From positions 310,001 through 374,000 of the forward strand of contig CANMWT010000002.1 in NCBI GenBank assembly GCA_947501635.1: a DNA stretch of 64,000 nt. The letters run 5' to 3'. Position numbers and translations under genes: made by a program. The notes beneath the pieces are model-generated. The model worked only from the letters and a program-made list of their open reading frames with translations, had not been told where the DNA came from and did not search any database. Within the stretch, counting starts at the first letter, position 1. The number at the start of each line of letters is the position of its first letter. Source of the DNA: an uncultured Roseobacter sp. (GTDB lineage: Bacteria > Pseudomonadota > Alphaproteobacteria > Rhodobacterales > Rhodobacteraceae). Shown here piece by piece: positions 43,006 to 60,829 of this stretch.

Positions 43006-43243
43006 TCCTGTCTGTCTTGATTCGGTGCAAGACCGTTTCCTGCGCTTCGTTCACACAACTTTACGCGCGTAAACTATCGCTTCTGCTGCGATATGCAGGC
43101 CCCCGGATTTTTGAGGGAAAGTTATTTATTTCAGGTGCTTACGTTTTTTTGCACACGTGTGCAAAATTCTCTTGCCAAAATGCCCCTCTGGTCGCTAGCG
43201 TCAAAGGCAGCGCAAAAAGCGTGCTGCGCCAGCAGGGGGATCT
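43006..43243 (+). other. 238-base promoter region of the ABC/SnoaL operon
   Basis: AT-richer than its surroundings. It holds the LacI-type palindrome at 43147-43166 and an AGGGGGA ribosome site before the ATP-binding protein gene. No further gene is seen. Confidence 0.6.
43147..43166. promoter_or_regulatory. perfect 20-bp LacI-type operator palindrome
   Basis: The arms TTTTGCACAC and GTGTGCAAAA are exact reverse complements with a central CG, the form bound by LacI-family dimers. It lies 78 bases before the first gene of the operon that also encodes a LacI regulator. No second copy was found in the window. Confidence 0.8.
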
Positions 43244-44299
43244 ATGGCCGAAATACAACTGCGAAACGTGAACAAGCGTTGGGGCAGCTTCGTAGGTGTC
43301 GACAACTTTGATCTGACCATCGCCGATCAGGAGTTCTTGGTGCTGTTGGGGCCCTCGGGCTGTGGCAAGACGACGACCATGCGCATGATCGCGGGTCTTG
43401 AAGATGCCACCGAAGGCGAGATCGTGATTGACGGTCGCGTAGTGAATGATCTGGACCCCAAAGACAGGGATGTCGCGATGGTGTTCCAGTCTTACGGCCT
43501 TTATCCGAACATGAATGTCTATGAGAACATTCGCTTTCCGCTGAAAGTGCGCAAGGTGCCGGATGCGGAACATGACGAACGGGTGCGCCGCGCCTCTGCC
43601 ATGGTGGAGCTGGATGATTTCTTGCACCGCAAACCTGCCGAATTGTCAGGCGGGCAGCGACAGCGGGTTGCCCTGGCCCGTGCAATCGTGCGCGAACCAA
43701 ACGTATTTTTAATGGATGAACCGCTCTCCAACCTCGACGCCAAGCTGCGGGTCTCGACCCGTGCGCAGATCAAAAATCTCAGCCATGAACTCAAGGTGAC
43801 CACGGTCTATGTGACGCACGACCAGATCGAGGCCATGACGCTCGCAGACCGTGTCGTTGTCATGAAGCAAGGCAAGGTTCAGCAAGTCGGCACGCCGACG
43901 GACATCTATGACAACCCGGCAAACACATTCGTTGCCAGCTTTATCGGCAGCCCCGCGATGAACCTTATGGATGGCGAGGTGTCGGGTGGAACCTTCACCG
44001 GCACCAATGTCTCGATCAGCGATCTCAACGCGCCCGATGGCCCTGTGACCTTGGGCTTTCGCGCCGAAGATGCAGCGCTGGCCGAAGATGGCCAAGGGCA
44101 GATCAGCGCCCCGATTTACACGATCGAGCTCTTGGGGGATGCGACCATGCTGACTGTGCGCGCGGGTGGACAATTGGTTTCGGTGAAGGCGCACAAGGAA
44201 TTCCGGGCGGAGATTGGCGATATGATCTCATTCGCCGTGCCGCAGACAATTTGCCACTTGTTTGACAAGGACAGCGGGATGCGGATCGGCATTTCCTGA
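43244..44299 (+). CDS. CUT1-type sugar ABC transporter ATP-binding protein
   Basis: A 351-residue ATPase of the MalK/UgpC group that drives import through the two permeases encoded downstream. Walker A GPSGCGKTT is at 36-44, the signature LSGGQRQR follows, and Walker B FLMDEPLSNLD is next, with a TOBE-type C-terminal regulatory domain from about 240 (VTLGFRAEDA). The ATG at 43244 follows AGGGGGA. It is the first gene of the operon behind the 20-bp operator. The order ATPase, binding protein, permeases is unusual for CUT1 systems, which mostly start with the binding protein. Confidence 0.94.
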   Translation: MAEIQLRNVNKRWGSFVGVDNFDLTIADQEFLVLLGPSGCGKTTTMRMIAGLEDATEGEIVIDGRVVNDLDPKDRDVAMVFQSYGLYPNMNVYENIRFPLKVRKVPDAEHDERVRRASAMVELDDFLHRKPAELSGGQRQRVALARAIVREPNVFLMDEPLSNLDAKLRVSTRAQIKNLSHELKVTTVYVTHDQIEAMTLADRVVVMKQGKVQQVGTPTDIYDNPANTFVASFIGSPAMNLMDGEVSGGTFTGTNVSISDLNAPDGPVTLGFRAEDAALAEDGQGQISAPIYTIELLGDATMLTVRAGGQLVSVKAHKEFRAEIGDMISFAVPQTICHLFDKDSGMRIGIS

Positions 44300-44308
44300 C
44301 CACCTTCA

Positions 44309-44358
44309 AGCCCGGGGTTTCGGGCCAACAAAAGGGTGCAGACTTGCAAGATGCACCC
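44309..44358 (+). promoter_or_regulatory. intercistronic stem-loops before the binding-protein gene
   Basis: Two small inverted repeats lie in series: GCCCG/CGGGC (44310-44314 with 44321-44325) and GGGTGCA/TGCACCC (44334-44340 with 44352-44358). They sit between the ATPase stop and the binding-protein start, where they could protect the transcript of the more abundant binding protein. Confidence 0.5.
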
Positions 44359-44385
44359 CACCCAACTGCAACAGGGAGTTTGCAT

Positions 44386-45606
44386 ATGTTTTTGAAAAGA
44401 ATCGCACTGGCCGGCGCTGTGTCACTCATGGGGAGTGCGGCATTTGCGGCATGTTCCTATGAGAACGAAGTGCCGATTAAATCGCTGAGCGCGGGATTTG
44501 AAGCGTGGAAGGCCGTGACCGATGCAATGGCGGAGTGCGGCAATTTCCAGGCTGAGCTGGATCAGGAGTTCCGCACCAAGCAGCCGGCCGCTTTCGAAGC
44601 GAACCCGTCGCTATACCAAATCGGTGGTGTGTCCAACGGCACGATCACCCCGCTCTTGAACGCAGGCACCATCCGCCCCTTGGACGATCTGGTGGAAAAA
44701 TACGGTCAGAACCTGAGCCCAAACCAGTTGATCCGCGTGAACGGCCAGATCATGGCGATCGCGATGATGGTCAACACGCAACACCTGATGTACCGCTCCG
44801 ATATCCTGGCTGATCTGGGTATTGAAACGCCAACCTCCTGGGATGAAGTCTACGCAGCTGCTGCGCAGATCAAAGAAGCCGGTGTCGTCGACTATCCGCT
44901 TGGCGCGACGATGAAGTCAGGTTGGAACCTCGCACAGGAATTCGTCAACATGTACCCGGGCTTCGGAGGCGTTTTCTTTAACGAAAACAATACGACGGCA
45001 GTAAATTCCGAAGCTGGGATGAAAGCTTTGGCCACAATGCAAAAAGCACTGGAATACACCGACCCTGAAGTTCTTGTCAGTGACAGCACATATGTGCAGC
45101 AGCAATTCCAGCAGGGCAAAATCGCTATGGCCAACCTATGGGCAAGCCGTGCCGGTGCCATGAACGACGAGGCCGAAAGTCAGGTTGTTGGCAAAGTTGC
45201 GATGGCAGCCGCTCCTGTTGCCATGGAAGGCGGTGCGCCTGCGACAACGCTGTGGTGGGACGGTATCGTCATCGCCAAGAACATCTCGGACGAAGAAGCT
45301 GATGCCGCTTTCCGTCTCGCGATGGAGGGTCTCGACAGTGAAATGGTGCAGGGTGCCAATGATGCAGCCATCTGGCTTGTGCCCGGCTATGAGCCCAATG
45401 AGATTGCCGTCGGAGCGATTGCAACCGCGACTGCAAACCCAGCACCTCCCGCGTACCCATCCACAACTCAGATGGGCCTGTTGCACACGGCATTGGGCAA
45501 CGAACTGCCTGCTTTCCTGACCGGAGAGCGTGACGCTGCAGCAACGCTGGTGGCAATTGAAGAGGCCTACACAACGTCCGCCAAGGAAGCTGGCGTTCTT
45601 CAATAA
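44386..45606 (+). CDS. ABC transporter substrate-binding protein (CUT1 family)
   Basis: Periplasmic receptor of 406 residues that delivers the substrate to the permeases. The signal peptide MFLKRIALAGAVSLMGSAAF ends with a cleavage site near AFA-AC. The mature protein has the extracellular solute-binding family 1 pattern (FEANPSLYQIGGVSNGTITPLL; NTQHLMYRSDILADLGIETP; GKIAMANLWASRAG). The ligand is not evident; an early mature Cys may pair or carry lipid. The ATG at 44386 follows GGGAG; a TTG at 44344 is less likely. Hairpins on both sides suggest separate mRNA stability. Confidence 0.93.
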   Translation: MFLKRIALAGAVSLMGSAAFAACSYENEVPIKSLSAGFEAWKAVTDAMAECGNFQAELDQEFRTKQPAAFEANPSLYQIGGVSNGTITPLLNAGTIRPLDDLVEKYGQNLSPNQLIRVNGQIMAIAMMVNTQHLMYRSDILADLGIETPTSWDEVYAAAAQIKEAGVVDYPLGATMKSGWNLAQEFVNMYPGFGGVFFNENNTTAVNSEAGMKALATMQKALEYTDPEVLVSDSTYVQQQFQQGKIAMANLWASRAGAMNDEAESQVVGKVAMAAAPVAMEGGAPATTLWWDGIVIAKNISDEEADAAFRLAMEGLDSEMVQGANDAAIWLVPGYEPNEIAVGAIATATANPAPPAYPSTTQMGLLHTALGNELPAFLTGERDAAATLVAIEEAYTTSAKEAGVLQ

Positions 45607-45615
45607 GCAATTCCG

Positions 45616-45640
45616 CCGGTCGGGGCGCTGTCCCGGCCGG
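45616..45640 (+). promoter_or_regulatory. intercistronic hairpin after the binding-protein gene
   Basis: A 9-bp stem (45616-45624 with 45632-45640, one T-G pair) closes a 7-base loop and has no T run. Such hairpins behind binding-protein genes usually stabilise that message over the permease part. Confidence 0.6.
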
Positions 45641-45736
45641 TACCCCGCCTGCCTGCTTTACCGACCGATACGCTTCTTTCGGTCCGTCAAGCTGGCATCC
45701 GCCTGAACAGCCGCAGCAAGCCGCAAGGAGTGGCCC

Positions 45737-46762
45737 ATGAAATTCAAGACCTTCGCAGCCTTTGTCGGCCCGTCCGTCTTTATGATGCTGTTGTTTATCG
45801 CCGCTCCGTTGGTCAGCGTGTTTGTCCAGAGCTTTCAGGTAACACAACCGATCCTCGAGCAAGTTGAAGTCGAGACATGTACGCCGGGCTTTCTGACCCA
45901 GACCTGCACCACCGAAACCAAGACGATACCGGTGCTGGACGAGAATGGCAAAACGCTGACGGAAACCCGCTGGGTCGGCCTGCAAAGCTATCAGAACGTT
46001 CTGCAGATGGACAAGTTCTGGGAGGCCGTTGGCAACGGCAGCTGGAATGATATCATGCAAATCGATTTCTGGAAGGCACTACGCTTTACCCTGTCCTTCA
46101 CACTGCTGACGCTGCCCCTCGTGATTGGCGTGGGCCTCGCGATTGCTCTGGCGGTGAATAATGCGACCCGCGCCATTCGCGGGCCCATCATCTTCGTGTC
46201 GCTTCTGCCCTTCATTATCACACCCGTCATCGGATCGCTCTCGATCTACTGGCTCTTTGTCGGGGATGGTATCCTGACAGCCATGATGGAGCGTTGGACT
46301 GGCACCAATATTTCCATGTTTGCCCAGGCCTGGACCATCGAGTTGCTGATGTATTTCTACCGCGTCTGGCACGTGGCTCCCTTCGCTTTCGTGATTTTTT
46401 ACGCTGGTTTACAAACGGTGAACATGGACACGCTGGAATCTGCCGTGATCGACGGGGCAAGCCGTTGGGAGCGTCTGCGCCATGTGATAATCCCGCACCT
46501 CATGCCGCTCATTATCTTCATTGCGCTTATTCACCTGATGGACTGCTACCGTGTCTTCGAAGAGATCGTCGGCTTCCGCAGCCAGGCGCATGTGATTTCC
46601 CTGCAGTGGCTGACCTACGACTTCATGACACCTGATGACGCGGGCAACCGTGCGATCAGCCGGGCGTCGGCATCGGCCATGCTGACAATGATCGGGATTG
46701 TCTTCCTTCTGATCCTGCCACTGCGCCGTACATGGCGCGACCACAAGGGGAGTTCGCACTGA
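45737..46762 (+). CDS. ABC transporter permease (MalF-like)
   Basis: A 341-residue inner-membrane permease with six or more spans and the ATPase-contact EAA loop ESAVIDGASRWERLRHVIIPHLMP. After the first span it has a periplasmic loop of about 80 residues with two Cys close together (VETCTPGFLTQTCTTE), possibly a disulfide-bonded cap. That is longer than usual for CUT1 permeases outside MalF. AAGGAG lies before the ATG at 45737. The second permease starts within its stop codon (TGATG). Confidence 0.92.
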   Translation: MKFKTFAAFVGPSVFMMLLFIAAPLVSVFVQSFQVTQPILEQVEVETCTPGFLTQTCTTETKTIPVLDENGKTLTETRWVGLQSYQNVLQMDKFWEAVGNGSWNDIMQIDFWKALRFTLSFTLLTLPLVIGVGLAIALAVNNATRAIRGPIIFVSLLPFIITPVIGSLSIYWLFVGDGILTAMMERWTGTNISMFAQAWTIELLMYFYRVWHVAPFAFVIFYAGLQTVNMDTLESAVIDGASRWERLRHVIIPHLMPLIIFIALIHLMDCYRVFEEIVGFRSQAHVISLQWLTYDFMTPDDAGNRAISRASASAMLTMIGIVFLLILPLRRTWRDHKGSSH

Positions 46763-47919
46763 TGTCGACCTCAAAGGCGATGCAGCAGTCTTTCGCGCTG
46801 CGCTTCTCTTCAGGCCTGTTTCTGGCCTTCTGGTGCCTGCTCGCGGCCTTTCCGATCTTCTGGATCGCGATCATGAGTTTCAAATCCCCCGTGGACGCTT
46901 TTGCAGCCAGCCCGTGGGATGTGATTACCGGCCCGGCGACGCGCGCCAATGGCGATGGCCTCTCGGTACTGGATATCGCGGTGGGGCTTGTAGTGCTCTA
47001 CTTTGCAATCCGCTGGGCCTTTACCCGCCTGCCGGGGCTGTTGCAGCAGTACTGCCCACCGGGCATGATCGTTCTGGGCTGGGTATTTGGCGCCATTCTC
47101 TACGCGATTGCCTTCGTATTGGTGTTCTTCAGCCTCATGCCCCTGATCCTGGGGGCGCTCAACAGCATAGCCGGCCCGCTGGGCACGCCGGTGCTGGGTC
47201 TGACAACGCAACACTATGTTGCCGTCTGGGCCGAGAATGAATTCTACCGAAACTTCCTGAATTCGATGCTGGTGACGGCAGGTGTTGTTACAGTATCGCT
47301 GACAGTGGGTACGCTTGCAGGTTACGGGCTTGCACGCTCTGGCTCCGATCTGGCGTTCTGGCTTTTGATCCTCGCACTGGTGTTTCGCGCGCTGCCGCAT
47401 TCGGTTCTCGTTGCAGGCTACCTGCCTGTCTTCATCAATTCGTCCGAAATCCTGCGCCCGATCTTTGGCGAAGGAGCGCCAACGCTCTACGGCCAACCCT
47501 GGGCAGTCATCGCCGTTCTTGTGGCGATCAACCAACCCTTCACCATCTGGATGCTACGCTCGTTTTTTCAGAACATTCCCGCCGAACTGGACGAAGCGGC
47601 GCGCGTGGACGGCTGCTCGCACTTTCAGGCCTTCCGGCGCGTCATCATGCCAGTGATGTGGCCCGGTGTTATTACGACTGGTCTGTTCAGCTTCCTGCTC
47701 GGCTACAACGATTTTCTTGTGACATCGCTTTTGCTCGATGCTCAAAATCAAACAATGGTGCCCGCCATCGCAGGATACTTCAATCGTGAAACCACAACCA
47801 CCGATCAGGTCGAAGCGGTTGCGGCAGCTGTATCGATTACCGCGCCCCTCTTCCTGTTGGTCATGGTCTTTCAAAGACAAATCGTCAGCGGCCTCACGGC
47901 AGGGGCCGTAAAAGGATAA
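46762..47919 (+). CDS. ABC transporter permease (MalG-like) with extra membrane segments
   Basis: Second permease, 385 residues. The core carries the usual NSMLVTAGVVTVSLTVGTLAGYGLAR and the EAA loop ELDEAARVDGCSHFQAFRRVIMPVMWP. MalG-type permeases are usually 270-300 residues. The surplus of about 90 lies between span 1 and the core, and contains two more hydrophobic stretches (about 70-85 and 105-135, LGWVFGAILYAIAFVLVFF). The start overlaps the previous stop. This enlarged form, together with the looped partner, points to an uncommon subfamily. Confidence 0.92.
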   Translation: MSTSKAMQQSFALRFSSGLFLAFWCLLAAFPIFWIAIMSFKSPVDAFAASPWDVITGPATRANGDGLSVLDIAVGLVVLYFAIRWAFTRLPGLLQQYCPPGMIVLGWVFGAILYAIAFVLVFFSLMPLILGALNSIAGPLGTPVLGLTTQHYVAVWAENEFYRNFLNSMLVTAGVVTVSLTVGTLAGYGLARSGSDLAFWLLILALVFRALPHSVLVAGYLPVFINSSEILRPIFGEGAPTLYGQPWAVIAVLVAINQPFTIWMLRSFFQNIPAELDEAARVDGCSHFQAFRRVIMPVMWPGVITTGLFSFLLGYNDFLVTSLLLDAQNQTMVPAIAGYFNRETTTTDQVEAVAAAVSITAPLFLLVMVFQRQIVSGLTAGAVKG

Positions 47920-47933
47920 ACCGCTCGCTCACT

Positions 47934-47959
47934 TTGCCCCATAAACTCCCGCCGGAGGC
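47934..47959. repeat. short repeat with CTCCCGCCGGAGG core, copy 2
   Basis: TTGCCC, then ATAAACTCCCGCCGGAGGC; 20 or so of 26 positions match the copy at 29849-29874. It lies between the permease gene and the SnoaL gene within the operon. Confidence 0.6.
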
Positions 47960-47990
47960 GCATGTCTCCTGCCAAGACCAAAGGTTACAC

Positions 47991-48530
47991 ATGAAAGGCA
48001 GCCGTCCCGAACAAGCCGTGCTTACCCGAGACACGGACATGTCGAAAACCGAAGAAACACGCGCGGTCATCGAAGGCATGGTCGACGGACTCAACGATCA
48101 CCGCATTGATGACATAGGCGCATTCTTCGCCGAGAATTTTCGCTGGATGGGCAATCAGGGCTGCGGTACCAAAACCGGGTTGCGTGCGTTTCAGGATAAC
48201 TGGCAACGCCCGTTTCAAGCCGCTTTCTCCGACAAAGTCTGCGTGGATGAAGCGCGGCTCTACATGGGAGAGTGGGCTGCAGCTTTCGGGCGACAGGAAG
48301 CTACGCATTCAGGTCCCTTCATGGGGGTGGCGCCTACCGGTAAGCGGGTCGTCATCCGTTATATGGATTTTTGGAAAGTGGAGGATGGCAGGATCTCGGA
48401 CAACTGGGTGATGGTAGACTTTCCCCATGTGTTGGCGCAGCTGGGCGTGGATGTATTCAGGGGCGAGGGCTGGGAGGCTTTCGACAGAGGCGAGAAAGAA
48501 CCGCCGCGCCCCGTTAAGGGAGGAGAATAG
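47991..48530 (+). CDS. SnoaL/NTF2-fold protein (ester-cyclase-like), single domain
   Basis: A 179-residue protein of the SnoaL-like group within the NTF2 fold; members include polyketide cyclases, isomerases and many uncharacterised proteins. The fold pattern is [30 protein letters not shown], then [49 protein letters not shown]. This last segment recurs nearly intact in the tandem SnoaL protein at 49923. The start is the ATG at 47991 or 48039. It lies two bases before the HisD-like gene and is the first of three SnoaL proteins in the operon. Confidence 0.85.
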
Positions 48531-48532
48531 AC

Positions 48533-49861
48533 ATGGCGATCACGTATCTAAAACGCGGAAAGAGCGATGCAGAGCGCGAAGAGGATGATGCAAAAACCCG
48601 TGCTGCAGTGGAAGGTATACTGGCAGATATCGAAAAACGCGGCGACGCGGCGGTACGCGAACTGTCCGAGAAGTTTGACAACTATTCGCCCGCGTCGTTT
48701 CGACTGAACGCGGCAGAAATTGATGATTTGATCGCACAGCTCAGCCCACGCGAGCTTGAAGATATCAAATTCGCCCAGGAACAGGTCCGCAACTTTGCCC
48801 AGGCGCAGCGCGACAGCATGCTGGATATCGAAATTGAAACGATGCCGGGCGTCATTCTTGGTCACAAGAACATACCCGTACAGTCCGTGGGCTGCTATGT
48901 GCCTGGCGGCAAGTTTCCCATGGTGGCATCTGCCCATATGTCAGTGGCAACCGCGAGTGTCGCAAAGGTGCCGCGCATCATTGCCTGCACGCCCCCGTTC
49001 AAAGGCAAGCCAAACCCGGCTGTGATTGCCGCCATGCATATGGGGGGAGCGCATGAGATTTACGTCATGGGTGGTATTCAGGCCGTGGGCGCGATGGCGC
49101 TCGGGACAGATACGATTGATCCGGTGCATATGCTCGTGGGGCCGGGAAATGCTTTTGTGGCGGAGGCAAAACGCCAGCTTTTTGGACGGGTTGGCATCGA
49201 CCTTTTTGCAGGCCCGACCGAAACCATGGTGATTGCGGATGAAACGGTGGATGCCGAGATGTGCGCCACGGATCTGCTTGGACAAGCCGAGCATGGCTAT
49301 AATTCCCCAGCAGTTTTGTTGACCAACTCGCGTAAACTGGCCGAAGAGACTCTGACCGAAATCAACCGTATCCTGACCATCCTGCCCACGGCGGACACCG
49401 CGCGCGTCAGTTGGGCCGATTATGGAGAGGTGATCCTATGCGACACCTATGAAGAGATGCTTCAGGTGGCCGACGATATTGCCTCGGAACATGTGCAGGT
49501 GATGACTGATCGCGATGACTGGTTCTTGGAGAATATGACCTGCTACGGCGCTTTATTTTTGGGACCACGCACGAATGTGGCCAACGGAGATAAGGTTATT
49601 GGGACCAATCACACGTTGCCCACCAAAAAGGCAGGTCGGTATACGGGCGGTTTGTGGGTCGGCAAGTTCCTGAAAACGCATAGCTATCAGAGGATTTTGA
49701 CTGATGAGGCCGCGGCTGAGATCGGTGCTTATGGGTCGCGGTTGTGCATGTTGGAGGGCTTTGTCGGGCATGCCGAGCAGTGTAATTTGCGGGTCCGGCG
49801 GTATGGCGGCGTCAATGTGCCCTATGGCGCCGGCGCGCCTGCGCAAGAGGCGGCGGAGTAG
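48533..49861 (+). CDS. histidinol dehydrogenase family enzyme, HpsN-like (possible sulfopropanediol 3-dehydrogenase)
   Basis: A 442-residue zinc- and NAD-dependent dehydrogenase of the HisD family. Zinc ligands Gln251 and His254 ([10 protein letters not shown]), Asp353 and His413 are in place, as is the catalytic pair Glu319-His320 (SEHVQVM). No his gene is near, and the sequence as I recall it is closer to HpsN, which oxidises 2,3-dihydroxypropane-1-sulfonate to sulfolactate, than to biosynthetic HisD. Like HpsN it probably oxidises a primary alcohol to the acid in two steps. It follows the SnoaL gene by two bases; a repeat separates it from the next gene. Confidence 0.83.
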
Positions 49862-49920
49862 GGGGCTCTGCCCCCCGGTGCGCGGCACCTTCCCCCCGGG
49901 ATGTATTGGGACCAAAGAAG
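49861..49920 (+). repeat. Roseobacter-type GC-rich intergenic repeat, copy 4
   Basis: GGGGGC/GCCCCC hairpin, GC-rich spacer, CCCCCGGGAT, then GACCAAAGAAG. It begins on the last base of the HisD-like stop codon. Its final AAGAAG stands where the ribosome site of the next gene should be. Confidence 0.8.
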
Positions 49921-49922
49921 AT

Positions 49923-50969
49923 ATGGATGTGCATTCACGACATAAAGAGGTTCTCGCGCCTTTACGCGCTGCGCTGTATGACTTTGATCTGGCGGCAGTG
50001 CGGCGTGTTCTTTTTGATATTTGCGCGCCGGATGTTGTGTTCCGGCTGGCCTATCCTTTTGAGACCATCCAAGGTGTTGACGCTTTTGTCGAACGCGTTT
50101 TTGTACCTTTGCAGGCAAGTTGGCCCGATCTGGAGCGGCGCGACTATATTGTGATGGCGGGACCTACGCCGGAAGGCGCGGATTGGGTCGGCTGTGGCGG
50201 CTACTATACCGGCGCGTTCATGGCGCCGTGGTTGGATGTTCCGCCGACAGGCCATCTTGCGCATATGCGGTTTCATGAATTCTACAGGTTCAAGGATGGC
50301 AAGATCACCGAGATGCAGGCGCTATGGGATATTCCTGAGGTGATGATGCAGGCGCGGGCCTGGCCCATGAGCCCCAGTCTGGGGCGCGAATGGGCGGTGC
50401 CCGGTCCTGCGACGTGCGACGGTATTTTGACCGGCGCCCATGATCCGCAGATCAGTACGGCCACCTGCCAGCATATCATCGATATGTTGGAGTATCTCAA
50501 AAAGCACCCCAGTCAGGGCGGGCCTGAAGTGATGGAGATGGAACGGTTCTGGCATCCCAAGATGTCATGGTACGGGCCGGCGGGCATTGGCACAGGGCGC
50601 GGACAACGCGGCTTTCGTCATTGGCACCAGATACCCTTCCTTAACGCGATGCCGGATCGTGGGCAGTATGTGGAAGATATCGAATACCATTTCTTCGGAG
50701 ATGGGAGCTATGCGGCGGTGACGGGCTGGCCAGATATGTATCAGAGCATCACGCATGACGGCTGGCTGGGCATTGCGCCCACGGGCAAGAAGATCGAAAT
50801 GCGCAGCCTTGATTTCTGGCGTCTTGAAAACGGGTTGATCCGCGAGAACTGGGTTCTGGTCGATTTGCTGCATATGTACGATCAGATCGGCGTTGATGTC
50901 TTTGCCCGGATGCGGGAGTTCAATAAGGCGCGCAGCGGATTTGATCCTGAAAGCGGGGTGGCATTGTGA
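49923..50969 (+). CDS. tandem SnoaL/NTF2-fold protein
   Basis: A 348-residue protein built of two SnoaL domains, about residues 8-140 (LRAALYDFDLAAVRRVLFDICAPDVVFRLAYP...) and about 190-335 (MERFWHPKMSWYGPAGIGTGRG...IAPTGKKIEMRSLDFWRLENGLIRENWVLVDLLHMYDQIG). The second domain is clearly related to the single-domain protein at 47991. No catalytic role is known for tandem forms. The start is the ATG at 49923; the frame itself opens inside the upstream gene. Its ribosome site (AAGAAG) is the end of the repeat element. The stop overlaps the SDR start (GTGA). Confidence 0.85.
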   Translation: MDVHSRHKEVLAPLRAALYDFDLAAVRRVLFDICAPDVVFRLAYPFETIQGVDAFVERVFVPLQASWPDLERRDYIVMAGPTPEGADWVGCGGYYTGAFMAPWLDVPPTGHLAHMRFHEFYRFKDGKITEMQALWDIPEVMMQARAWPMSPSLGREWAVPGPATCDGILTGAHDPQISTATCQHIIDMLEYLKKHPSQGGPEVMEMERFWHPKMSWYGPAGIGTGRGQRGFRHWHQIPFLNAMPDRGQYVEDIEYHFFGDGSYAAVTGWPDMYQSITHDGWLGIAPTGKKIEMRSLDFWRLENGLIRENWVLVDLLHMYDQIGVDVFARMREFNKARSGFDPESGVAL

Positions 50970-51727
50970 AGGTGTTGCCAAAATCTCCGGGTTTCGATCT
51001 GGCAGGCAAACGGGCCTTGGTGACGGGCGCATCTTCGGGGATCGGGCTTGCTTGTGCCGCCGCTTTGGCTGAAGCAGGTGCGCATGTTGTTTGTGCCGCG
51101 CGGCGCGAAGGCCCCTTGGCAGAGGTTGTGGCTGCGATGTCGCAGGCGGGTTTTTCCGCCGAGGTTCTGGTACTGGATCAGACTGATCTTGTCAGGTTGG
51201 AGGAGGTTTTCGCCACGTCCTTTGACGTGGTCGTCAATTCTGCTGGGCTTGCGCGCCACAATGCCGCGGTAGAGACTTTGCCGGAAGACTTTGACGCGGT
51301 CATGGGGATCAACTTGCGGTCAGCCTATTTTCTGTCGTCCTATGCCGCACGGGCTTTGATGGGCGCCGGGCGCGCGGGGTCGATCATTCATATTTCCAGC
51401 CAGATGGGGCAGGTGGGTGGCATTGACCGCGCTGTGTACTGCGCTTCCAAGCATGGGTTGGAAGGCATGGTAAAATCCATGGCGATTGAGTGGGGCAAGG
51501 CTGGTATCCGCATCAACACGGTCGGGCCGACCTTCATTCGAACACCGCTCACACAGGTGACCTTTGAAAACCCCGAACGTCTGGCCTGGATCATGGAAAA
51601 GATCAAATTACCGCGCGTGGGTGAAGTCGAAGACATTATGGGTGCTGTGCTTTTTCTGGCGTCGGATGCCTCTGCGATGGTCACGGGCACGTCGCTTTTG
51701 GTGGATGGAGGCTGGACCGCAGACTGA
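50966..51727 (+). CDS. short-chain dehydrogenase/reductase
   Basis: A 253-residue NAD(P)-dependent oxidoreductase of the classical SDR type. The cofactor loop is TGASSGIGLACA (about 20-31), NSAG is at about 91-94, and the active site has Ser in HISSQMGQVGG and the Tyr-x-x-x-Lys pair YCASK. The substrate is probably an alcohol or ketone intermediate of the pathway in this operon. It starts with a GTG overlapping the previous stop, and its stop overlaps the LacI start (TGATG). Confidence 0.93.
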   Translation: MKVLPKSPGFDLAGKRALVTGASSGIGLACAAALAEAGAHVVCAARREGPLAEVVAAMSQAGFSAEVLVLDQTDLVRLEEVFATSFDVVVNSAGLARHNAAVETLPEDFDAVMGINLRSAYFLSSYAARALMGAGRAGSIIHISSQMGQVGGIDRAVYCASKHGLEGMVKSMAIEWGKAGIRINTVGPTFIRTPLTQVTFENPERLAWIMEKIKLPRVGEVEDIMGAVLFLASDASAMVTGTSLLVDGGWTAD

Positions 51728-52752
51728 TGGGCAAAGTAACTTCCCTCGATGTGGCTGAAAGGGCTGGTGTGAGCCGGTCCGCTGTCAGTCGGGTCTTTAC
51801 ACCCGGCGCATCTGTCAGTTCGGCCACCCGTGACAAGGTGCGTAAGGCTGCCGCGGCATTGGGCTATCGTCCCAATGTCCTGGCCCGTGCGATGAATACC
51901 GGGCGCAGCCGCATCATCGGGCTGGTGGTGGCTTATCTGGAAAATCAGTTTTACCCCGAAGCCATAGAACGGCTTTCCAAGGCGCTGCAGGCCGAGGGCT
52001 ATCATGTGCTGGTTTTCATGGCCTCTAACGATGAGGCCGCGACACAGTCGGTTATTGACGAGTTGCTCGACTATCAGGTGGACGCAATCATCGCCGCTTC
52101 GGTCGGGCTTTCCAGTGACCTGACGCAGCGTTGTGAAGGGCTGGGCATTCCGATTGTGCTGTTCAACCGGCATCAGTATGATGAACGGCTGACGTCAGTG
52201 ACGTCGGACAATGTCACGGGCGGGCGCAAACTGGCAGAGTTTCTGGTCGCGGGCAGTCACGAGCGGATCGCACATATCGCCGGTTGGGAAGGTGCGTCGA
52301 CCCAGATAGACCGCGAGGCCGGTTTCATGGAAGGCTTGCATGCAGCCGGCGTTCCGCTTTTTGCCCGCGAGGTCGGCAACTTCAATTTTGAAACCGCCAA
52401 GGAAGCAGCGCGCGCGATGTTCAGCGCAGCAAACAGGCCGGATGCGGTGTTTGTCGCCAATGATCACATGGCCTTCGCCGTCATGGATGTGCTGCGTTTC
52501 GAACTTGGGTTACGTGTGCCGCAAGATACTTCCGTCGTCGGCTATGACGATGTCGCACTTTCGCAGTGGCCGAGCTACAACCTGACGACCGTTCGCCAGC
52601 CTGCCAACCGGATGGTGGCCGAAACTGTTCACGCACTCATGTCCCGCCTGTCCGGTGAGGATACCGCCCCAAGGCGCATCGCCCTTGACGGGCCTCTGAT
52701 GATCCGCGGCTCGGCCCGCTTACCGAAGGACCCTTCCCATGCAAGGATTTGA
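51727..52752 (+). CDS. LacI family transcriptional regulator
   Basis: A 341-residue regulator. The helix-turn-helix VTSLDVAERAGVSRSAVSRVF is at the N-terminus, followed by the hinge-helix region RPNVLARAM and a periplasmic-binding-protein-like effector domain (IIGLVVAYLENQFYP ... VFVANDHMAFAVMDVLR ... VVGYDDVALSQW). It is embedded within the operon rather than beside it. The likely target is the 20-bp palindrome at 43147-43166 upstream of the first gene, giving autoregulation. The effector is probably the imported substrate or a breakdown product. It overlaps the next gene by 14 bases. Confidence 0.95.
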   Translation: MGKVTSLDVAERAGVSRSAVSRVFTPGASVSSATRDKVRKAAAALGYRPNVLARAMNTGRSRIIGLVVAYLENQFYPEAIERLSKALQAEGYHVLVFMASNDEAATQSVIDELLDYQVDAIIAASVGLSSDLTQRCEGLGIPIVLFNRHQYDERLTSVTSDNVTGGRKLAEFLVAGSHERIAHIAGWEGASTQIDREAGFMEGLHAAGVPLFAREVGNFNFETAKEAARAMFSAANRPDAVFVANDHMAFAVMDVLRFELGLRVPQDTSVVGYDDVALSQWPSYNLTTVRQPANRMVAETVHALMSRLSGEDTAPRRIALDGPLMIRGSARLPKDPSHARI

Positions 52753-53707
52753 CGCGAAATTCAAAGATTTTCCTGACTATATCATCGGGATTACAAAGGA
52801 AATCTGGGAGGATCGTGGGATTGCAACTCTGCATCAGTATTACTCGGATGATATTGTGGTGCGCTCGCCTGCCTCGGTCGTTGTGGGCAACCAGAATGTA
52901 ATCGGTGCTACGATGGCCACTCTGGCCGAGTTCCCCGATCGCACGCTTTTGGGCGAAGACGTGATCTGGTCGGGGACGCCGGAGGAGGGCATGCTGTCGT
53001 CGCACAGGTTGCTAAGTACGGCGACACATGCGCGTGACGGTGTTTATGGCAAGGCAACTGGCAGAAAGCTGACCTACCGCATTCTTGCGGATTGCCATGC
53101 GATCAACAACCAGATCAACGACGAGTGGCTGATACGCGATCAGGGAGCGATTGTCCGTCAACTGGGATGGGATCCCAAAGACTACGCTGCTGATCTGATC
53201 ACCAGGGAAGGGGGTGCGGAAAACTGCATTAAGCCGCTCACTCCGCAAACAGATCAGCCGGGGCCTTACAAGGGCAGGGGCAACGACAATGAATGGGGCG
53301 CGAAATACGCAGATATCCTGTCGCGCATCATGGGCGCGGATATGGCGGTCATTCCGGTCGCGTATGACCGTGCGGCGCATCTTGAGTATCCGGGTGGTGT
53401 AACCGGCCATGGTCACGGTGATGCGGATCAGTTCTGGATGGGGCTGCGTGCGTCTTTCCCGGATGCCGTTTTCCAGATCGATCACCAGATCGGGCGCGAT
53501 GAACCGTTGATGCCGCCACGGGCCGCGGTCCGCTGGTCTTTGTCTGGCAAACATTCGGGGTGGGGGACCTTTGGAGCACCCACCGGGGCAGATATCTATC
53601 TGCTTGGCATCTGCCACGCGGAATTCGGGCCTTGGGGGATGCGGCGCGAGTATGTGATTTATGACGAGACGACGATCTGGAAGCAGATATTGTTGCACAC
53701 GGGGTAA
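52739..53707 (+). CDS. tandem SnoaL/NTF2-fold protein (second type)
   Basis: A 322-residue protein with two SnoaL-like domains, about 10-145 (ITKEIWEDRGIATLHQYYSDDIVVRSPASVVVG) and about 180-315 (QFWMGLRASFPDAVFQIDHQIGRDEPLMPPRAAVRWSLSGKHSGWGTFG). It shares the fold and tandem layout, but little sequence, with the protein at 49923. No reaction is known. The ATG at 52739 lies inside the end of the LacI gene, so translation is coupled. It is followed three bases later by the PNPOx-like gene. Confidence 0.84.
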   Translation: MQGFDAKFKDFPDYIIGITKEIWEDRGIATLHQYYSDDIVVRSPASVVVGNQNVIGATMATLAEFPDRTLLGEDVIWSGTPEEGMLSSHRLLSTATHARDGVYGKATGRKLTYRILADCHAINNQINDEWLIRDQGAIVRQLGWDPKDYAADLITREGGAENCIKPLTPQTDQPGPYKGRGNDNEWGAKYADILSRIMGADMAVIPVAYDRAAHLEYPGGVTGHGHGDADQFWMGLRASFPDAVFQIDHQIGRDEPLMPPRAAVRWSLSGKHSGWGTFGAPTGADIYLLGICHAEFGPWGMRREYVIYDETTIWKQILLHTG

Positions 53708-53710
53708 AAG

Positions 53711-54322
53711 ATGGATCACTTCGGAACATTGATGTTTACCGACGCTGTGCAGCGGGAACAAACCGCGCAAGGTTCCCGCGAGACCTATGCGCGGATGACA
53801 CAGCGTCCGGCGCCGGTTGGATTAGGCGAGGATGAAATTGCTTTTTTAACCACGCGCACCTCTGTCTACATGGCAACGGTTTCTCAGACCGGTTGGCCTT
53901 ACGTGCAGCATCGCGGTGGACCACGCGGCTTTATCAAGGTAGCCGACCCTTTGACGATCGCCTTTGCCGACTATCGCGGCAACCGGCAGTTTGTCAGCAA
54001 GGGTAACCTAACAACCGACGACCGCGTGTCGCTCTTTGCGATGGATTATCCGCGAAAGGCGCGACTGAAGCTGCTGGGCCATGCCGTCATGCAATCAGCC
54101 GAGAATGCGCCCGATCTGGCAGAGCAATTGGCAACTGAAGGGCAAGGCAAAGTTGAACGTGTTGTGACGATAAAAATCGCAGCCTTTGACTGGAACTGCC
54201 CGCAATTCATCACACCAAGGTTCGATGCCGAGGAAATGGCGGCCCTTGTCGGCCCCGAGATCACGCGGTTGGAGAACCGTATCGCAGAGTTGGAAGCCGA
54301 ACTCGCCGATCTGCGTTCATGA
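53711..54322 (+). CDS. pyridoxamine 5'-phosphate oxidase-like flavin-binding protein
   Basis: A 203-residue protein with a split-barrel flavin-binding fold of the PNPOx-like family. The pattern is FLTTRTSVYMATVSQTGWPYVQHRGGPRGF, then IAFADYRGNRQFVSKGNL, typical of the longer AGZ/Pnp-ox subgroup found near oxidation pathways. A C-terminal coiled coil (about 180-203, ITRLENRIAELEAELADL) may hold the dimer. It could use FMN or F420-like flavins as a reductase or oxidase. It is three bases after the tandem SnoaL gene and followed by a cupin gene. Confidence 0.88.
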   Translation: MDHFGTLMFTDAVQREQTAQGSRETYARMTQRPAPVGLGEDEIAFLTTRTSVYMATVSQTGWPYVQHRGGPRGFIKVADPLTIAFADYRGNRQFVSKGNLTTDDRVSLFAMDYPRKARLKLLGHAVMQSAENAPDLAEQLATEGQGKVERVVTIKIAAFDWNCPQFITPRFDAEEMAALVGPEITRLENRIAELEAELADLRS

Positions 54323-54338
54323 AAAGAAAGAGACTGCA

Positions 54339-55307
54339 ATGACACCCCAGGAAATGGAAAGCCGCATCGTTCGCTATGGCGACCTGCGACCTTGTAAAAC
54401 CGCCTTTATCGATGCCCATACACCGGGCTCGGATCAGAAAGAGAATTTTACGATTATCGGGGGCGGTGTCTCGGAAAGCGCGGATCAGCATGTGCATATC
54501 GCCTTGCCGCATGGTTTTAACATTGGCGCCGCAGGGCAACCGCCAAAGTGCCGTAACTCGCTGCATAGCCATCGCACGGCCGAAGTCTTTTTTGTCCTGT
54601 CCGGCAGATGGCGTTTTTTCTGGGGCCGATGGGGCGACGCGGGCGAGGTCGTGCTGGAAGAGGGTGACATCTTTAACATCCCGACCGGTATCTTCCGCGG
54701 TTTCGAAAACATTGGAAATGATTACGGAATGATCATGGCCATCCTTGGGGGAGACGACGCCGGCGGGGGCGTGATCTGGGCGCCGCAGGTGATCGAAGAT
54801 GCCGCCGGCCACGGGTTGGTTCTTTCGGAAGAGGGCAAGCTTTATGACGGAACCAAGGGCCAAAGCCTGCCGGCGGGCGTCAAACCGATGCCATTGTTGA
54901 GCGACGAGGAGTTGTCGGCGTTTCCAGAACCCTCAACAGCCGATGTGGTGCCGCACTACGTGGCACGATACTGGGACATGGTTGCCCTTTCAGACCGCAA
55001 ACCGGCCAAGGTTATTGGTGCGCAGGGCATGCTGCGCGACAAGCCGGGCTTTGAGGTTGATATGGTCACGCGCGCTTCTGCGACGGACAAGATGCACAAA
55101 CATGACCGCCCGTCGGTGCTGATGCCCGTGCGCGGACACTGGCGGGTCAACTGGGAAGGCGGCAGTACGACGCTTGCACCGGGAGATACGATGTCGGTGC
55201 CCGAAGAGATCATGCATTCGGCGGTGCCCTCGATGACAGGGAACGCAAGCCTTTTCCACATTGTGGCAACAGATGACGCGCCCGGCGCGACATGGGCGGG
55301 AGAATAA
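54339..55307 (+). CDS. double-domain cupin protein
   Basis: A 322-residue bicupin. The first cupin is at about 55-150 (RNSLHSHRTAEVFFVLSGRWRFFWG ... EGDIFNIPTGIFRGFENIG), with His-x-His and Glu ligands. The second is at about 240-310 (HKHDRPSVLMPVRGHWRVNWEGG ... DTMSVPEEIMHSAVP). Both cupins retain metal-type His, so it may be a dioxygenase or isomerase. The start is the ATG at 54339, 17 bases after the previous stop. The MetE-like gene begins two bases after its stop. A related but distinct double cupin is fused to a VOC domain at 16278. Confidence 0.85.
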   Translation: MTPQEMESRIVRYGDLRPCKTAFIDAHTPGSDQKENFTIIGGGVSESADQHVHIALPHGFNIGAAGQPPKCRNSLHSHRTAEVFFVLSGRWRFFWGRWGDAGEVVLEEGDIFNIPTGIFRGFENIGNDYGMIMAILGGDDAGGGVIWAPQVIEDAAGHGLVLSEEGKLYDGTKGQSLPAGVKPMPLLSDEELSAFPEPSTADVVPHYVARYWDMVALSDRKPAKVIGAQGMLRDKPGFEVDMVTRASATDKMHKHDRPSVLMPVRGHWRVNWEGGSTTLAPGDTMSVPEEIMHSAVPSMTGNASLFHIVATDDAPGATWAGE

Positions 55308-55308
55308 C

Positions 55309-56436
55309 ATGTCGATCAGTGTCACACATGTAGGGTCGCTGCCGCGCACGCAGGAAGTTGTCGATTTCATTTTCGCGCGGGAGCGAGAGGAACCTTACGA
55401 CCCTGCGGCTTTTGACGCTGCAATGGCGCGGGCCGTTTCAGACACGGTCGCCAAACAGGTGGCAGCAGGCGTCGATATTGTCAGCGATGGCGAGACGTCC
55501 AAGATTTCCTACGCGACTTATGTGAAAGACCGCTACACAGGGTTTTCCGGGGACAGTCCGCGCAACCCGCCGGGAGATCTGAAACTCTTTCCCAGTTTTC
55601 TCAAACGCTTGGCGAATGATGGTGGCACACCTAAATATGCACGCCCCATGTGTACCGGCGAGGTGCGTTCCAAAGGGCAGGGCGAGTTGGGCAAGGACAT
55701 TGCAAACCTCAAAGCGGCCATGGCCGAGCATGGGCGCGCCCGAGGGTTTATGAACGCGGCCTCACCGGGGGTCATCTCGCTGTTTTTGCAAAATGATCAC
55801 TATCCTACGCGTGACGCTTATCTGGCGGCTTTGGCAGATGCGATGCGCGAGGAATACGAAACGATCGTGGCTGCAGGTCTGGATTTGCAACTGGATTGTC
55901 CTGATCTGGCGCTCTCGCGTCATATGTTGTTTCAGGATCTGACGGATGAAGAATTTGTAGCTGTTGCCGCGTCGCACGTTGAGGCGCTGAACCATGCGTT
56001 GGCAAATGTACCCGCCGAACGGGTTCGCATACATATCTGCTGGGGCAATTACGAGGGGCCTCATGTTTGTGATATCGGGATGGCGCAAGTCTTTGACACG
56101 CTGATGTCTGCCAAGGCACGCTATGTGCTGTTCGAGACGTCAAATCCCCGCCATGCGCATGAGTGGACGGTTTTCCGTGACCGTAGGGCCGACATCCCCG
56201 ACGATAAGGTGCTGGTGCCCGGCGTGGTCGATACAACGACAAACTTTGTTGAGCATCCCGAAGTTGTGGCCCAACGGCTTGAGCGGTTTATCCCGATTGT
56301 CGGAAAGGACCGCGTGATCGCGGGATCGGACTGTGGTTTTGGCACTTTTGCGGGTTTCGGATCGGTTGATCCGGATATCGCTTATGCCAAGCTGCAGTCT
56401 CTGTCTGAAGGGGCCGCGATTGCGGCAGCGCGTTGA
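55309..56436 (+). CDS. single-domain MetE-like zinc thiol-alkyltransferase
   Basis: A 375-residue protein matching the C-terminal catalytic barrel of cobalamin-independent methionine synthase. The zinc triad is visible as His242-x-Cys244 (IHICWGN) and Cys342 (GSDCGFG), with Glu276 between. The N-terminal half of full MetE is absent. Known enzymes of this short form include epoxyalkane:coenzyme M transferase and core-MetE proteins, all of which join or cleave a carbon-sulfur bond at a zinc-bound thiolate. Its place in a breakdown operon beside an HpsN-like enzyme suggests such a step here. The ATG at 55309 is 2 bases after the cupin stop; the stop overlaps the RraA start. Confidence 0.85.
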   Translation: MSISVTHVGSLPRTQEVVDFIFAREREEPYDPAAFDAAMARAVSDTVAKQVAAGVDIVSDGETSKISYATYVKDRYTGFSGDSPRNPPGDLKLFPSFLKRLANDGGTPKYARPMCTGEVRSKGQGELGKDIANLKAAMAEHGRARGFMNAASPGVISLFLQNDHYPTRDAYLAALADAMREEYETIVAAGLDLQLDCPDLALSRHMLFQDLTDEEFVAVAASHVEALNHALANVPAERVRIHICWGNYEGPHVCDIGMAQVFDTLMSAKARYVLFETSNPRHAHEWTVFRDRRADIPDDKVLVPGVVDTTTNFVEHPEVVAQRLERFIPIVGKDRVIAGSDCGFGTFAGFGSVDPDIAYAKLQSLSEGAAIAAAR

Positions 56437-57131
56437 TGGATGACAATTTGCACAAACTGCTGACAGAGGTAGATACCCCGACCGTCTGCAATGCGATCGA
56501 GGTGGCTCAGGGCAAACGGGGATTTGCCGCGTTCACCCGCGGGACCATGCTGGCCTCCCACCCGAGCGCGCCTGCGATGGTCGGTTATGCACGCACGGCG
56601 CGCATCCGCGCGATTGCGCCTCCGACCGAGCCGCCCGAAACCATCAAGGCGCGCCGCATGGCCTACTACAAGCATATGGCCACTGGCCCGCGTCCGGCAG
56701 TGGCTGTGGTGCAGGATCTGGATGTGCCGAATGCGATTGGCGCTTATTGGGGTGAGATCAACACCAATATCCACAAAAGCTTTGGTCTGTCGGGAACGCT
56801 GACCGACGGTGTCATGCGAGATCTGGGCGATATGCCCGAAGGCTACCCGGTCGTGGCAGGCTCTGTCGGGCCCAGCCACGGTTTTGTACATGTCGTCGAT
56901 ATCGCCAAAGAGGTCGACATCTTCGGTCTGCCAGTGGCGGATGGCGATCTGGTCCATGCCGACCGGCACGGCGCGCTTGTTATTCCGCCAGAGGTCATTC
57001 CGCGACTTGCTGACGCCATCGCGACGTTGCAGCGCTCGGAGCGGATCATTTTTGACGCGGTGAAAGGCAAACGCCTGTCATTCGAAGAGTTCGAAGGCGT
57101 CTGGGCGGCCTTTGAGACTTCCCGGACCTGA
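56436..57131 (+). CDS. RraA-like aldolase/lyase (HMG/CHA aldolase family)
   Basis: A 231-residue protein of the RraA/dimethylmenaquinone-methyltransferase-like fold. Most such members in breakdown operons are metal-dependent class II aldolases of the 4-hydroxy-4-methyl-2-oxoglutarate type, splitting off pyruvate or decarboxylating oxaloacetate. Signatures are LTEVDTPTVCNAIEV at the N-terminus, WGEINTNIHKSFGLSGTLTDGVMRDL, which includes the GxxTDGxxRD-type metal loop, and VADGDLVHADRHGALVIPPEV. The ATG at 56436 overlaps the previous stop. It is the last gene of the operon. Confidence 0.88.
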   Translation: MDDNLHKLLTEVDTPTVCNAIEVAQGKRGFAAFTRGTMLASHPSAPAMVGYARTARIRAIAPPTEPPETIKARRMAYYKHMATGPRPAVAVVQDLDVPNAIGAYWGEINTNIHKSFGLSGTLTDGVMRDLGDMPEGYPVVAGSVGPSHGFVHVVDIAKEVDIFGLPVADGDLVHADRHGALVIPPEVIPRLADAIATLQRSERIIFDAVKGKRLSFEEFEGVWAAFETSRT

Positions 57132-58385: not shown

Positions 58386-58414
58386 AAAACCACTCCTTGC
58401 GCTGCGTGTCAGGG

Positions 58415-59521: not shown

Positions 59522-59617
59522 GGCGATTTGAATGTCCCTGAACGTGTTTTTGTTCCAGTCAGGGTTACGGGATGCGCGTGGCAGTGCAAGCCATAACGCG
59601 ACTTTTCGTAAGGAAAC

Positions 59618-60826: not shown

Positions 60827-60829
60827 CAA

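Follow-up and report, generated by a model that had tools for sequence, protein, structure and literature searches.

Cyanobacteria, dinoflagellates, red algae, and corals widely use mycosporine-like amino acids (MAAs) as sunscreens against UV light. The second amino acid of an MAA is serine in shinorine and threonine in porphyra-334, and the MAA core, 4-deoxygadusol, is 3,5-dihydroxy-5-hydroxymethyl-2-methoxycyclohex-2-enone. According to the excerpts of the literature on which we draw here and below, glycine is attached to the ring at C3 and another amino acid at C1, and the ring double bond carries a methoxyl group; bacterial formation of 4-deoxygadusol from shinorine and porphyra-334 has been cited, and hydrolysis gives deoxygadusol (PMC3083659). 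The closest described lower pathway is that of protocatechuate 4,5-cleavage and gallate degradation (LigU, LigJ, LigK), in which the gallate ring-cleavage product is 4-oxalomesaconate (OMA) (PMC8091115) and an RraA-fold aldolase splits 4-carboxy-4-hydroxy-2-oxoadipate (CHA) into pyruvate and oxaloacetate (PMC5065237). In this study, we analyzed a 14-gene operon (positions 43244 to 57131, all genes on the + strand) in a 64,000-nucleotide stretch of an uncultured Roseobacter sp. (the window; G000:C2:310001-374000, from a 4.2-Mb genome of 65 contigs).

The operon encodes an ATP-binding cassette (ABC) importer, three SnoaL-fold proteins, an HpsN-like dehydrogenase, a short-chain dehydrogenase/reductase (SDR), a LacI regulator, a PNPOx-like protein, a bicupin, a MetE-like zinc enzyme, and an RraA-like protein. 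The gene set is conserved, an operator-like site lies upstream of it, and its core adjoins lig genes in one genome and serine or threonine ammonia-lyase genes in several. Judging from gene content, we regard the uptake and degradation of MAAs, shinorine and porphyra-334 among them, as the probable function of the operon. We favor this reading because the lig junction seems to place the end of the route at OMA or CHA, because serine/threonine ammonia-lyases and RidA occur at the cluster in several lineages, and because the inferred reactions would take 4-deoxygadusol exactly through CHA. An earlier annotation made from the window alone (the sequence-only reading) had stated that no described pathway has this gene set; likewise, we found neither such a pathway nor bacterial genes for full MAA breakdown in the literature searched, the scope of which excluded most subscription papers and all bioRxiv preprints.

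Junctions of the core with lig and ammonia-lyase genes

The lig junction is present in Parasphingorhabdus marina (L135), where the gene order is LigU, LigK / 3HIBDH, LigJ, F10, MetE-like, HpcH, SnoaL3, cupin, SDR, HpsN-like, sodium-solute symporter (SSS), SnoaL2, RidA, with 4 bp between LigJ and F10. LigU, LigK, LigA, and LigB are named from the Croceicoccus annotation, and LigI, LigJ, LigC, and 3HIBDH are our own names for Croceicoccus genes annotated as amidohydrolases or oxidoreductases. Nine LigJ-bearing comparators (seven genus-mates, G1109, and G1112) show the arrangement LigI-LigU-LigK / 3HIBDH-LigJ-LigA-LigB-LigC; ligA and ligB are kept in eight of them, while the ninth (L229) is without both and keeps LigI and LigC. 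In P. marina, whose locus lacks LigI as well as LigA, LigB, and LigC, the core occupies the place that ligA, ligB, and ligC have in the relatives. The genome-wide search of P. marina covered LigB and LigJ, so that the absence of LigI, LigA, and LigC refers to the locus; no LigB relative was found by protein search in this genome (3 of the 14 genomes searched had one), and PF02900, the LigAB-type dioxygenase family, gave no match in P. marina or G000 (3 of the 6 genomes searched had one). With the core standing in the place of ligABC, ligI missing, LigU, LigJ, and LigK retained, and the search for a LigB-type dioxygenase negative, the most likely product of the core is OMA or CHA, a C7 acid. 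The proposed end products and the aldol cleavage to pyruvate and oxaloacetate would thus be shared with the described lower pathway, whereas ring opening would be carried out by the cupin in place of a PF02900 dioxygenase, and LigK and the RraA-like protein share only 29% identity over 90 amino acids.

The same LigU/LigJ/LigK junction is expected if the substrate is a methoxylated C7 phenolic compound (syringate, 3-O-methylgallate, or an algal or plant phenolic alcohol), with the MetE-like enzyme demethylating its ring and the cupin acting as a gallate dioxygenase to give OMA. This alternative could also draw on a distant group of MetE-like, NTF2, and IclR genes that lies beside LigM, MetF, and PurU in sphingomonads; however, that group is 53 to 55% identical, and the rest of the set is lacking from the stretches fetched. 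Furthermore, oxidation of CH2OH by an HpsN-type enzyme is not needed for benzoates, and importers of the CUT1, SSS, and tripartite ATP-independent periplasmic (TRAP) types are unusual for aromatics. A phenolic substrate also leaves the serine/threonine ammonia-lyases described below unexplained, and we regard it as quite unlikely.

The sphingomonad group is an observation in its own right. In four loci (L034, L077, L078, and L235), the MetE-like gene is paired with a gene for an NTF2 protein of 129 to 133 amino acids and with IclR, near LigM, MetF, and PurU; FolD is also near the pair in three of the four, which may point to a second O-demethylation role for the family. An identification of the MetE-like or NTF2 protein with DesC or DesD of Novosphingobium aromaticivorans was rejected: the two genes beside ligM in L237 (taken as N. 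aromaticivorans from an exact match to part of a published primer, which occurred in 0 of 397 genomes in one search and in 1 of 195 in another, with DesC and DesD located by counting locus tags from ligM) were read as encoding an alpha/beta hydrolase and a glutathione S-transferase-like protein, and no MetE-like match was found within 20 kb beside ligM in this locus.

L-Serine ammonia-lyase genes are present in 5 of the 176 fetched loci, which were searched together with the window stretch, where about 0.8 would be expected assuming 1.1 lyase copies per 3.8 Mb. Two more lie just past the edge of their loci, as confirmed by fetching those stretches, and all seven exceed the TIGR00720 cut-off. 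The full core has the lyase in or beside the cluster in L130, L137, L150, L145/L238, and L148/L239. The 4.5-kb contig L157 holds F10, MetE-like, and cupin genes, and there the lyase gene overlaps the cupin gene by 4 bp; in L121 the lyase gene stands beside a MetE-like gene without the core. Matches to the operator described below occur in the intergenic stretch before the lyase gene in L137, L238, and L239 (0, 2, and 2 mismatches, respectively). The L131 operon encodes a threonine ammonia-lyase that is over its cut-off (NF005600, 543 versus 496 bits), behind an AceE-like E1 that is below its own; the E1 and lyase genes each overlap the upstream neighbor by 4 bp. RidA lies beside the cluster in L135 (by Pfam) and in L144 (by tblastn, 50% to the L135 copy). 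A serine ammonia-lyase that seemed to adjoin L143 was dropped, since it is on another contig despite adjacent-looking coordinates. In close relatives of the window, a serine/threonine-dehydratase-like gene is found on the opposite strand 6 to 8 kb downstream (L202:17674-18681 and L187:20134-21108); the L202 copy is below every curated cut-off.

A proposed route and the enzymes that may carry it

We infer the substrate, the order of the steps, and each reaction as follows. The ABC importer would take up the MAA, and the SnoaL-fold proteins might, as a guess, strip the imine-linked glycine, serine, and threonine to leave 4-deoxygadusol, with its C7 ring skeleton, one methoxy group, and one hydroxymethyl group. 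The HpsN-like enzyme would oxidize the CH2OH to COOH, and the MetE-like zinc enzyme would transfer the methyl group to a thiol, most likely homocysteine, leaving a cyclic reductone. The cupin would then use O2 to cleave C2=C3 of the reductone, giving C2OOH-C1(=O)-C6H2-C5(OH)(COOH)-C4H2-C3OOH, which is CHA, and aldol cleavage of CHA by the RraA-like protein would yield pyruvate and oxaloacetate. In a variant of the route, dehydration (by a SnoaL protein) would come first and lead through 4-O-methylgallate and gallate to OMA. We know of no other natural compound in which a branched C7 skeleton with a methyl ether and with a primary alcohol next to a hydroxylated carbon comes together with glycine, serine, or threonine. 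More tentatively, the operon may represent the first gene set for the complete catabolism of MAAs by bacteria, with two new chemistries (ring O-demethylation by a MetE-type zinc enzyme and a cupin that opens a nonaromatic cyclic reductone directly to CHA), and the pathway would then be modular across Alpha-, Beta-, and Gammaproteobacteria, Acidimicrobiia, and Chloroflexi, with importers and aldolases swapped.

In the window, the importer consists of a CUT1-type ATP-binding protein (abcA, 43244 to 44299; named from its sequence and an orthologue annotated "ABC transporter ATP-binding protein"), an extracellular solute-binding protein of the SBP_bac_1 family (44386 to 45606; PF01547, 6e-24), and two sugar-type permeases (45737 to 46762 and 46780 to 47919; named from annotated orthologues). 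A CUT1-type importer accompanies the core in Rhodobacterales, Rhizobiaceae, and Acidimicrobiales, a TonB receptor with an SSS or major facilitator superfamily (MFS) protein takes this place in sphingomonads and gammaproteobacteria, and L113 has a TRAP importer. Because the importers swap between lineages, the pattern suggests that the pathway is defined by its enzymes and not by its importer; no informative relative was found for the L109 TonB receptor, which was considered as a hint to the substrate. A sugar-type importer and the SDR (50966 to 51727; PF13561, 4e-56) would also fit some other amino-acid-conjugated or O-methylated cyclitol or sugar of algae or cyanobacteria, degraded to the point of a pyruvate aldolase, and other loci encode a lactonase-like protein (F19; fuconolactonase is the best model, below cut-off) and a GarL-like HpcH (below cut-off). 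However, the LigU/LigJ/LigK junction calls for a branched C7 tricarboxylic acid and would not be expected from such a compound, which we consider unlikely to be the substrate.

The HpsN/HisD-family dehydrogenase (Histidinol_dh, 48533 to 49861; PF00815, 3e-134) passes the HisD model TIGR00069 (430.2 bits versus a cut-off of 243.8 bits), and its best match in the PDB is the sulfopropanediol 3-dehydrogenase 8v35. HpsN has a GRY[AS]H motif with a sulfonate-binding His, and HisD has GSAPL (excerpt of PMC11382572). In the 96 HpsN-like sequences compared, neither motif occurs; all 96 have G[KR][FY]P[MLI] (GKFPM in the window), in which the sulfonate His is replaced by Met, Leu, or Ile. Aligned to 8v35, the zinc ligands (Gln, His, Asp, His) and the catalytic Glu-His pair are kept, as in HpsN and HisD; EH, DK, and QAEH are present in all 96 sequences, and the last His is present in at least 95. 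By analogy with the four-electron oxidation of alcohol to acid in these two enzymes, the HpsN-like protein may oxidize CH2OH to COOH. HpsN being its closest solved structure by sequence, the protein could be taken as a 2,3-dihydroxypropane-1-sulfonate (DHPS) 3-dehydrogenase and thus as a sign of a sulfonate substrate (DHPS or a DHPS conjugate), but because the His that recognizes the sulfonate is missing throughout, we set this aside as highly improbable. Seven loci (L042, L055, L120, L132, L136, L156, and L207) have a second, more distant HpsN-like paralogue in or near the cluster, with 43 to 46% identity and a GRFPL or GRYPL motif.

The MetE-like protein (Meth_synt_2, 55309 to 56436; PF01717), the putative O-demethylase, resembles the C-terminal half of MetE, the cobalamin-independent methionine synthase, in its zinc ligand pattern and in a GSLPR-type N-terminal motif. 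Unlike MetE, it is far below every listed curated cut-off (at best 84.7 versus 406 bits for the MetE equivalogs), and the window operon has no folate gene. The pattern HxCWGN, FExxN, and DCGF is at least 95% conserved in 67 sequences, including haloarchaeal and actinobacterial ones; we take it to be the His, Cys, Glu, Cys zinc site of E. coli MetE, an equivalence made by motif and not by structure. The bicupin (54339 to 55307; PF07883), the putative ring-opening dioxygenase, has a second domain that is weak by Pfam and visible in the structure model (mean predicted local distance difference test score [pLDDT], 92.5). Its model neighbors include quercetinase and gentisate dioxygenase, but oxalate decarboxylase and vicilin are tied with them; identity is 10 to 17% among the matches listed. 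Compared with the bicupin dioxygenases (quercetinase and gentisate/salicylate 1,2-dioxygenase), HxHxxxE is kept (H76, H78, and E82 are invariant in 36 rows), whereas the last His is exchanged for Arg. F10, the hydrolase that lies next to LigJ in P. marina, is an alpha/beta hydrolase, and its L135 copy is nearest to the curated PcaCD/PcaD enol-lactonase models, under cut-off.

The RraA-like protein (56436 to 57131; PF03737, 1.3e-13, 51.9 versus a cut-off of 24.5 bits), the putative CHA aldolase, shares its fold family and an Arg-Asp motif with the 4-hydroxy-4-methyl-2-oxoglutarate (HMG)/CHA aldolase, despite the low identity to LigK. The motif is at least 95% conserved in 29 sequences, its equivalence to the aldolase site being by motif and not by structure; in the excerpted description of the Pseudomonas putida enzyme, the active site includes Arg-123 (PMC5065237). 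Since the unrelated pyruvate aldolase family HpcH/HpaI takes the place of RraA in many other lineages, and the two stand in for each other, the RraA-like protein could plausibly carry out an aldol-type carbon cleavage. The SnoaL proteins comprise the single-domain SnoaL1 (47991 to 48530; PF07366, 1.3e-20) and the tandem proteins SnoaL2 (49923 to 50969; two stretches each of PF07366 and PF12680) and SnoaL3 (52739 to 53707; by Pfam), in line with an earlier count of five SnoaL domains. The SnoaL3 model (pLDDT, 96.9) has SnoaL cyclases and ketosteroid isomerase as neighbors. Extra SnoaL-family proteins beyond these three are encoded at L141:7695-8102, L052:7275-8291, and L130:11880-12596 (the last just under the Pfam cut-off).

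Several points weigh against MAA catabolism. (i) The lig junction is known from a single genome, and no LigJ was found in the window genome. In P. marina, the need for an aldolase is met twice, because HpcH is present in addition to LigK; likewise, ligAB can vanish for other reasons, because both are missing from the lig locus of the genus-mate L229, where the core is not present. (ii) The ammonia-lyases joined to clusters are all outside Rhodobacterales, where only the RidA-like match in L073 and the downstream dehydratase-like gene of L187 and L202 were seen, and in the window genome the serine ammonia-lyase gene is about 91 kb from the operon (the genomes checked for this position were partly picked for a lyase match in their locus). 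The three operator matches before lyase genes sit between divergent genes and may therefore belong to the opposite neighbor, a core gene, and no match was found before the lyase gene in L130, L150, L157, or L121. (iii) The roles given to the SnoaL proteins are guesses, we know of no precedent for a sugar-type importer for MAAs, and the cupin has Arg120 in all 36 rows where the motif places the last His, so that the usual third His is lacking.

The sequence-only reading had proposed a carbohydrate- or polyol-like substrate, release of its side group by the MetE-like or cupin enzyme, and final carbon cleavage by the RraA-like protein. There are signs of its co-regulated unit and its aldol cleavage is plausible, whereas its substrate class and cupin role find no support: with a route that seems to lead to the C7 acid OMA or CHA, and with serine/threonine ammonia-lyases in some copies, the substrate term is overly broad, and the cupin is more likely a ring-opening enzyme than a remover of side groups.

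Layout, regulation, and spread of the operon

All 14 genes are at the positions given in the sequence-only reading. Ten products were scanned with Pfam and NCBIfam, which back their names; the ATP-binding protein, the two permeases, and the LacI-family regulator (51727 to 52752) are named from sequence and annotated orthologues. At 9 of the 13 junctions the genes overlap or are at most 17 bp apart, and the remaining four gaps are 86, 130, 71, and 61 bp. The gene list stands with two qualifications, namely, that the PNPOx-like flavin split-barrel protein (PNPOx_N, 53711 to 54322; PF01243, 2e-08) is a rare accessory (4 of 47 loci) and that F10, a common member of the set, is absent from the window operon. 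Directly downstream, on the opposite strand (57153 to 60829), are genes for an MR/MLE-type dehydratase, a zinc alcohol dehydrogenase, and an MFS protein; the first two recur beside the operon in close relatives (5 and 4 of 47 loci, respectively).

A perfect 18-bp palindrome, TTTGCACACGTGTGCAAA (43148 to 43165), ends 78 bp before the first gene and is a candidate LacI operator; it is the sole match in the window at up to 3 mismatches (0.06 expected). A second candidate, ACTTTACGCGCGTAAACT (43058 to 43075), is a near-perfect palindrome with 1 mismatch. The palindrome core TTGCANNCGNNTGCAA also occurs upstream of the same gene in orthologous loci, and its reversed-sequence control gave 0 matches in all eight genomes scanned. 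G000 has the core four times: at the operon studied here, in two copies of TTGCAACCGGTTGCAA, which are perhaps the site of another regulator, and once elsewhere. The TTGCAACCGGTTGCAA palindromes (G000:C24:3319 and 23265; also in G042, G074, G294, G1115, G119, and G110) are mostly paired or in triplets 3 to 20 kb apart and may mark another LacI-type regulon. A CG-centered palindrome with no more than 1 mismatch lies in the 300 bp preceding the first gene of the run in 16 of 36 loci versus 1 of 36 coding-region controls; these 36 remained from 42 loci after 6 dropped out for short upstream sequence or lack of a called MetE-like gene, and in some of them the run begins with a gene outside the set. 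Operator matches with at most 2 mismatches number 36 sites over 13 loci versus 0 to 19 for ten shuffled half-sites. Scans for promoters (6 versus 7.2 in shuffles) and terminators (16 versus 14.7) gave no excess of note. The sequence evidence favors the proposed single operon, a commonly regulated unit of 14 genes: it has its own LacI gene, and in many orthologous loci an operator-like site precedes the first gene.

Of 390 genomes sampled from the order, 161 (about 41%) have the MetE-like gene (E ≤ 1e-30), which is also present in 72 of 385 genomes of the class and in 26 of 398 of the phylum (both at E ≤ 1e-40, own genome and family members counted). Among 40 order loci fetched from the 161 matches, 32 also have the HpsN-like gene, mostly with nearly the whole set, while L060, L061, L064, L065, L067, L069, L071, and L073 are without it and have a smaller share of the set. 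In 47 loci with a MetE-like relative (these 40 and seven plasmid records, distant relatives among them), the counts are SDR 37, SnoaL3 35, HpsN-like 34, LacI 34, cupin 33, F10 30, importer genes 29, SnoaL2 28, RraA 26, and SnoaL1 21. Named carriers of the nearest clusters are Rhodobacterales, e.g., Ruegeria, Octadecabacter, and Shimia. From named records, the best 80 of at least 590 loci were taken; the MetE-like gene was called in 75 of them, and 60 of these also have the HpsN-like or cupin gene. These 60 loci include cupin in 55, any SnoaL in 53, HpsN-like in 48, SDR in 47, LacI in 44, and F10 in 37, and their aldolase is HpcH/HpaI in 24 and RraA in 15, with both once (L161) and neither in 22. 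Contig ends and missed gene calls lower such counts; L150, one of the five loci without a called MetE-like gene, shows the set by direct search.

The core of HpsN-like, SDR, SnoaL, cupin, and MetE-like genes is present in Alpha-, Beta-, and Gammaproteobacteria, Acidimicrobiia, and Chloroflexi and partly in SAR324, of which one contig has MetE-like, cupin, and importer genes only. By record title, carriers include Phenylobacterium, Sphingomonas, Burkholderiales, Halieaceae, HTCC2148, Steroidobacteraceae, Acidimicrobiales, and Chloroflexi. The set thus recurs across genomes beyond chance, in syntenic variants and with importers and aldolases exchanged, and the operon is real, conserved, widespread, catabolic, and probably co-regulated. 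In Octadecabacter arcticus, the cluster (L033) is on plasmid pOA238_160, typed as mobilizable; an IS6 transposase gene adjoins it and it contains a short DDE transposase gene, so that the cluster may spread by way of the plasmid. Plasmids of Dietzia and Halobaculum carry distant MetE-like genes but have no gene set in common with the operon. The gene on Dietzia plasmid pI (L036) is beside genes for a 2OG-Fe oxygenase, a YaaH-type transporter, and a phytanoyl-CoA dioxygenase/HD-domain pair that resembles phosphonate oxidation genes.

If the operon does degrade MAAs, these natural algal sunscreens would gain a known bacterial fate. About 41% of the sampled genomes of the order (161 of 390) hold the MetE-like gene, and 32 of the 40 fetched loci the HpsN-like gene as well; metagenomes would then allow one to measure what becomes of the carbon, nitrogen, and methyl groups of these sunscreens. 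A first substrate would be assigned to the MetE-like and HpsN-like clades, and many genes annotated as "cobalamin-independent methionine synthase II family protein," "histidinol dehydrogenase," and "ester cyclase" would be due for renaming.

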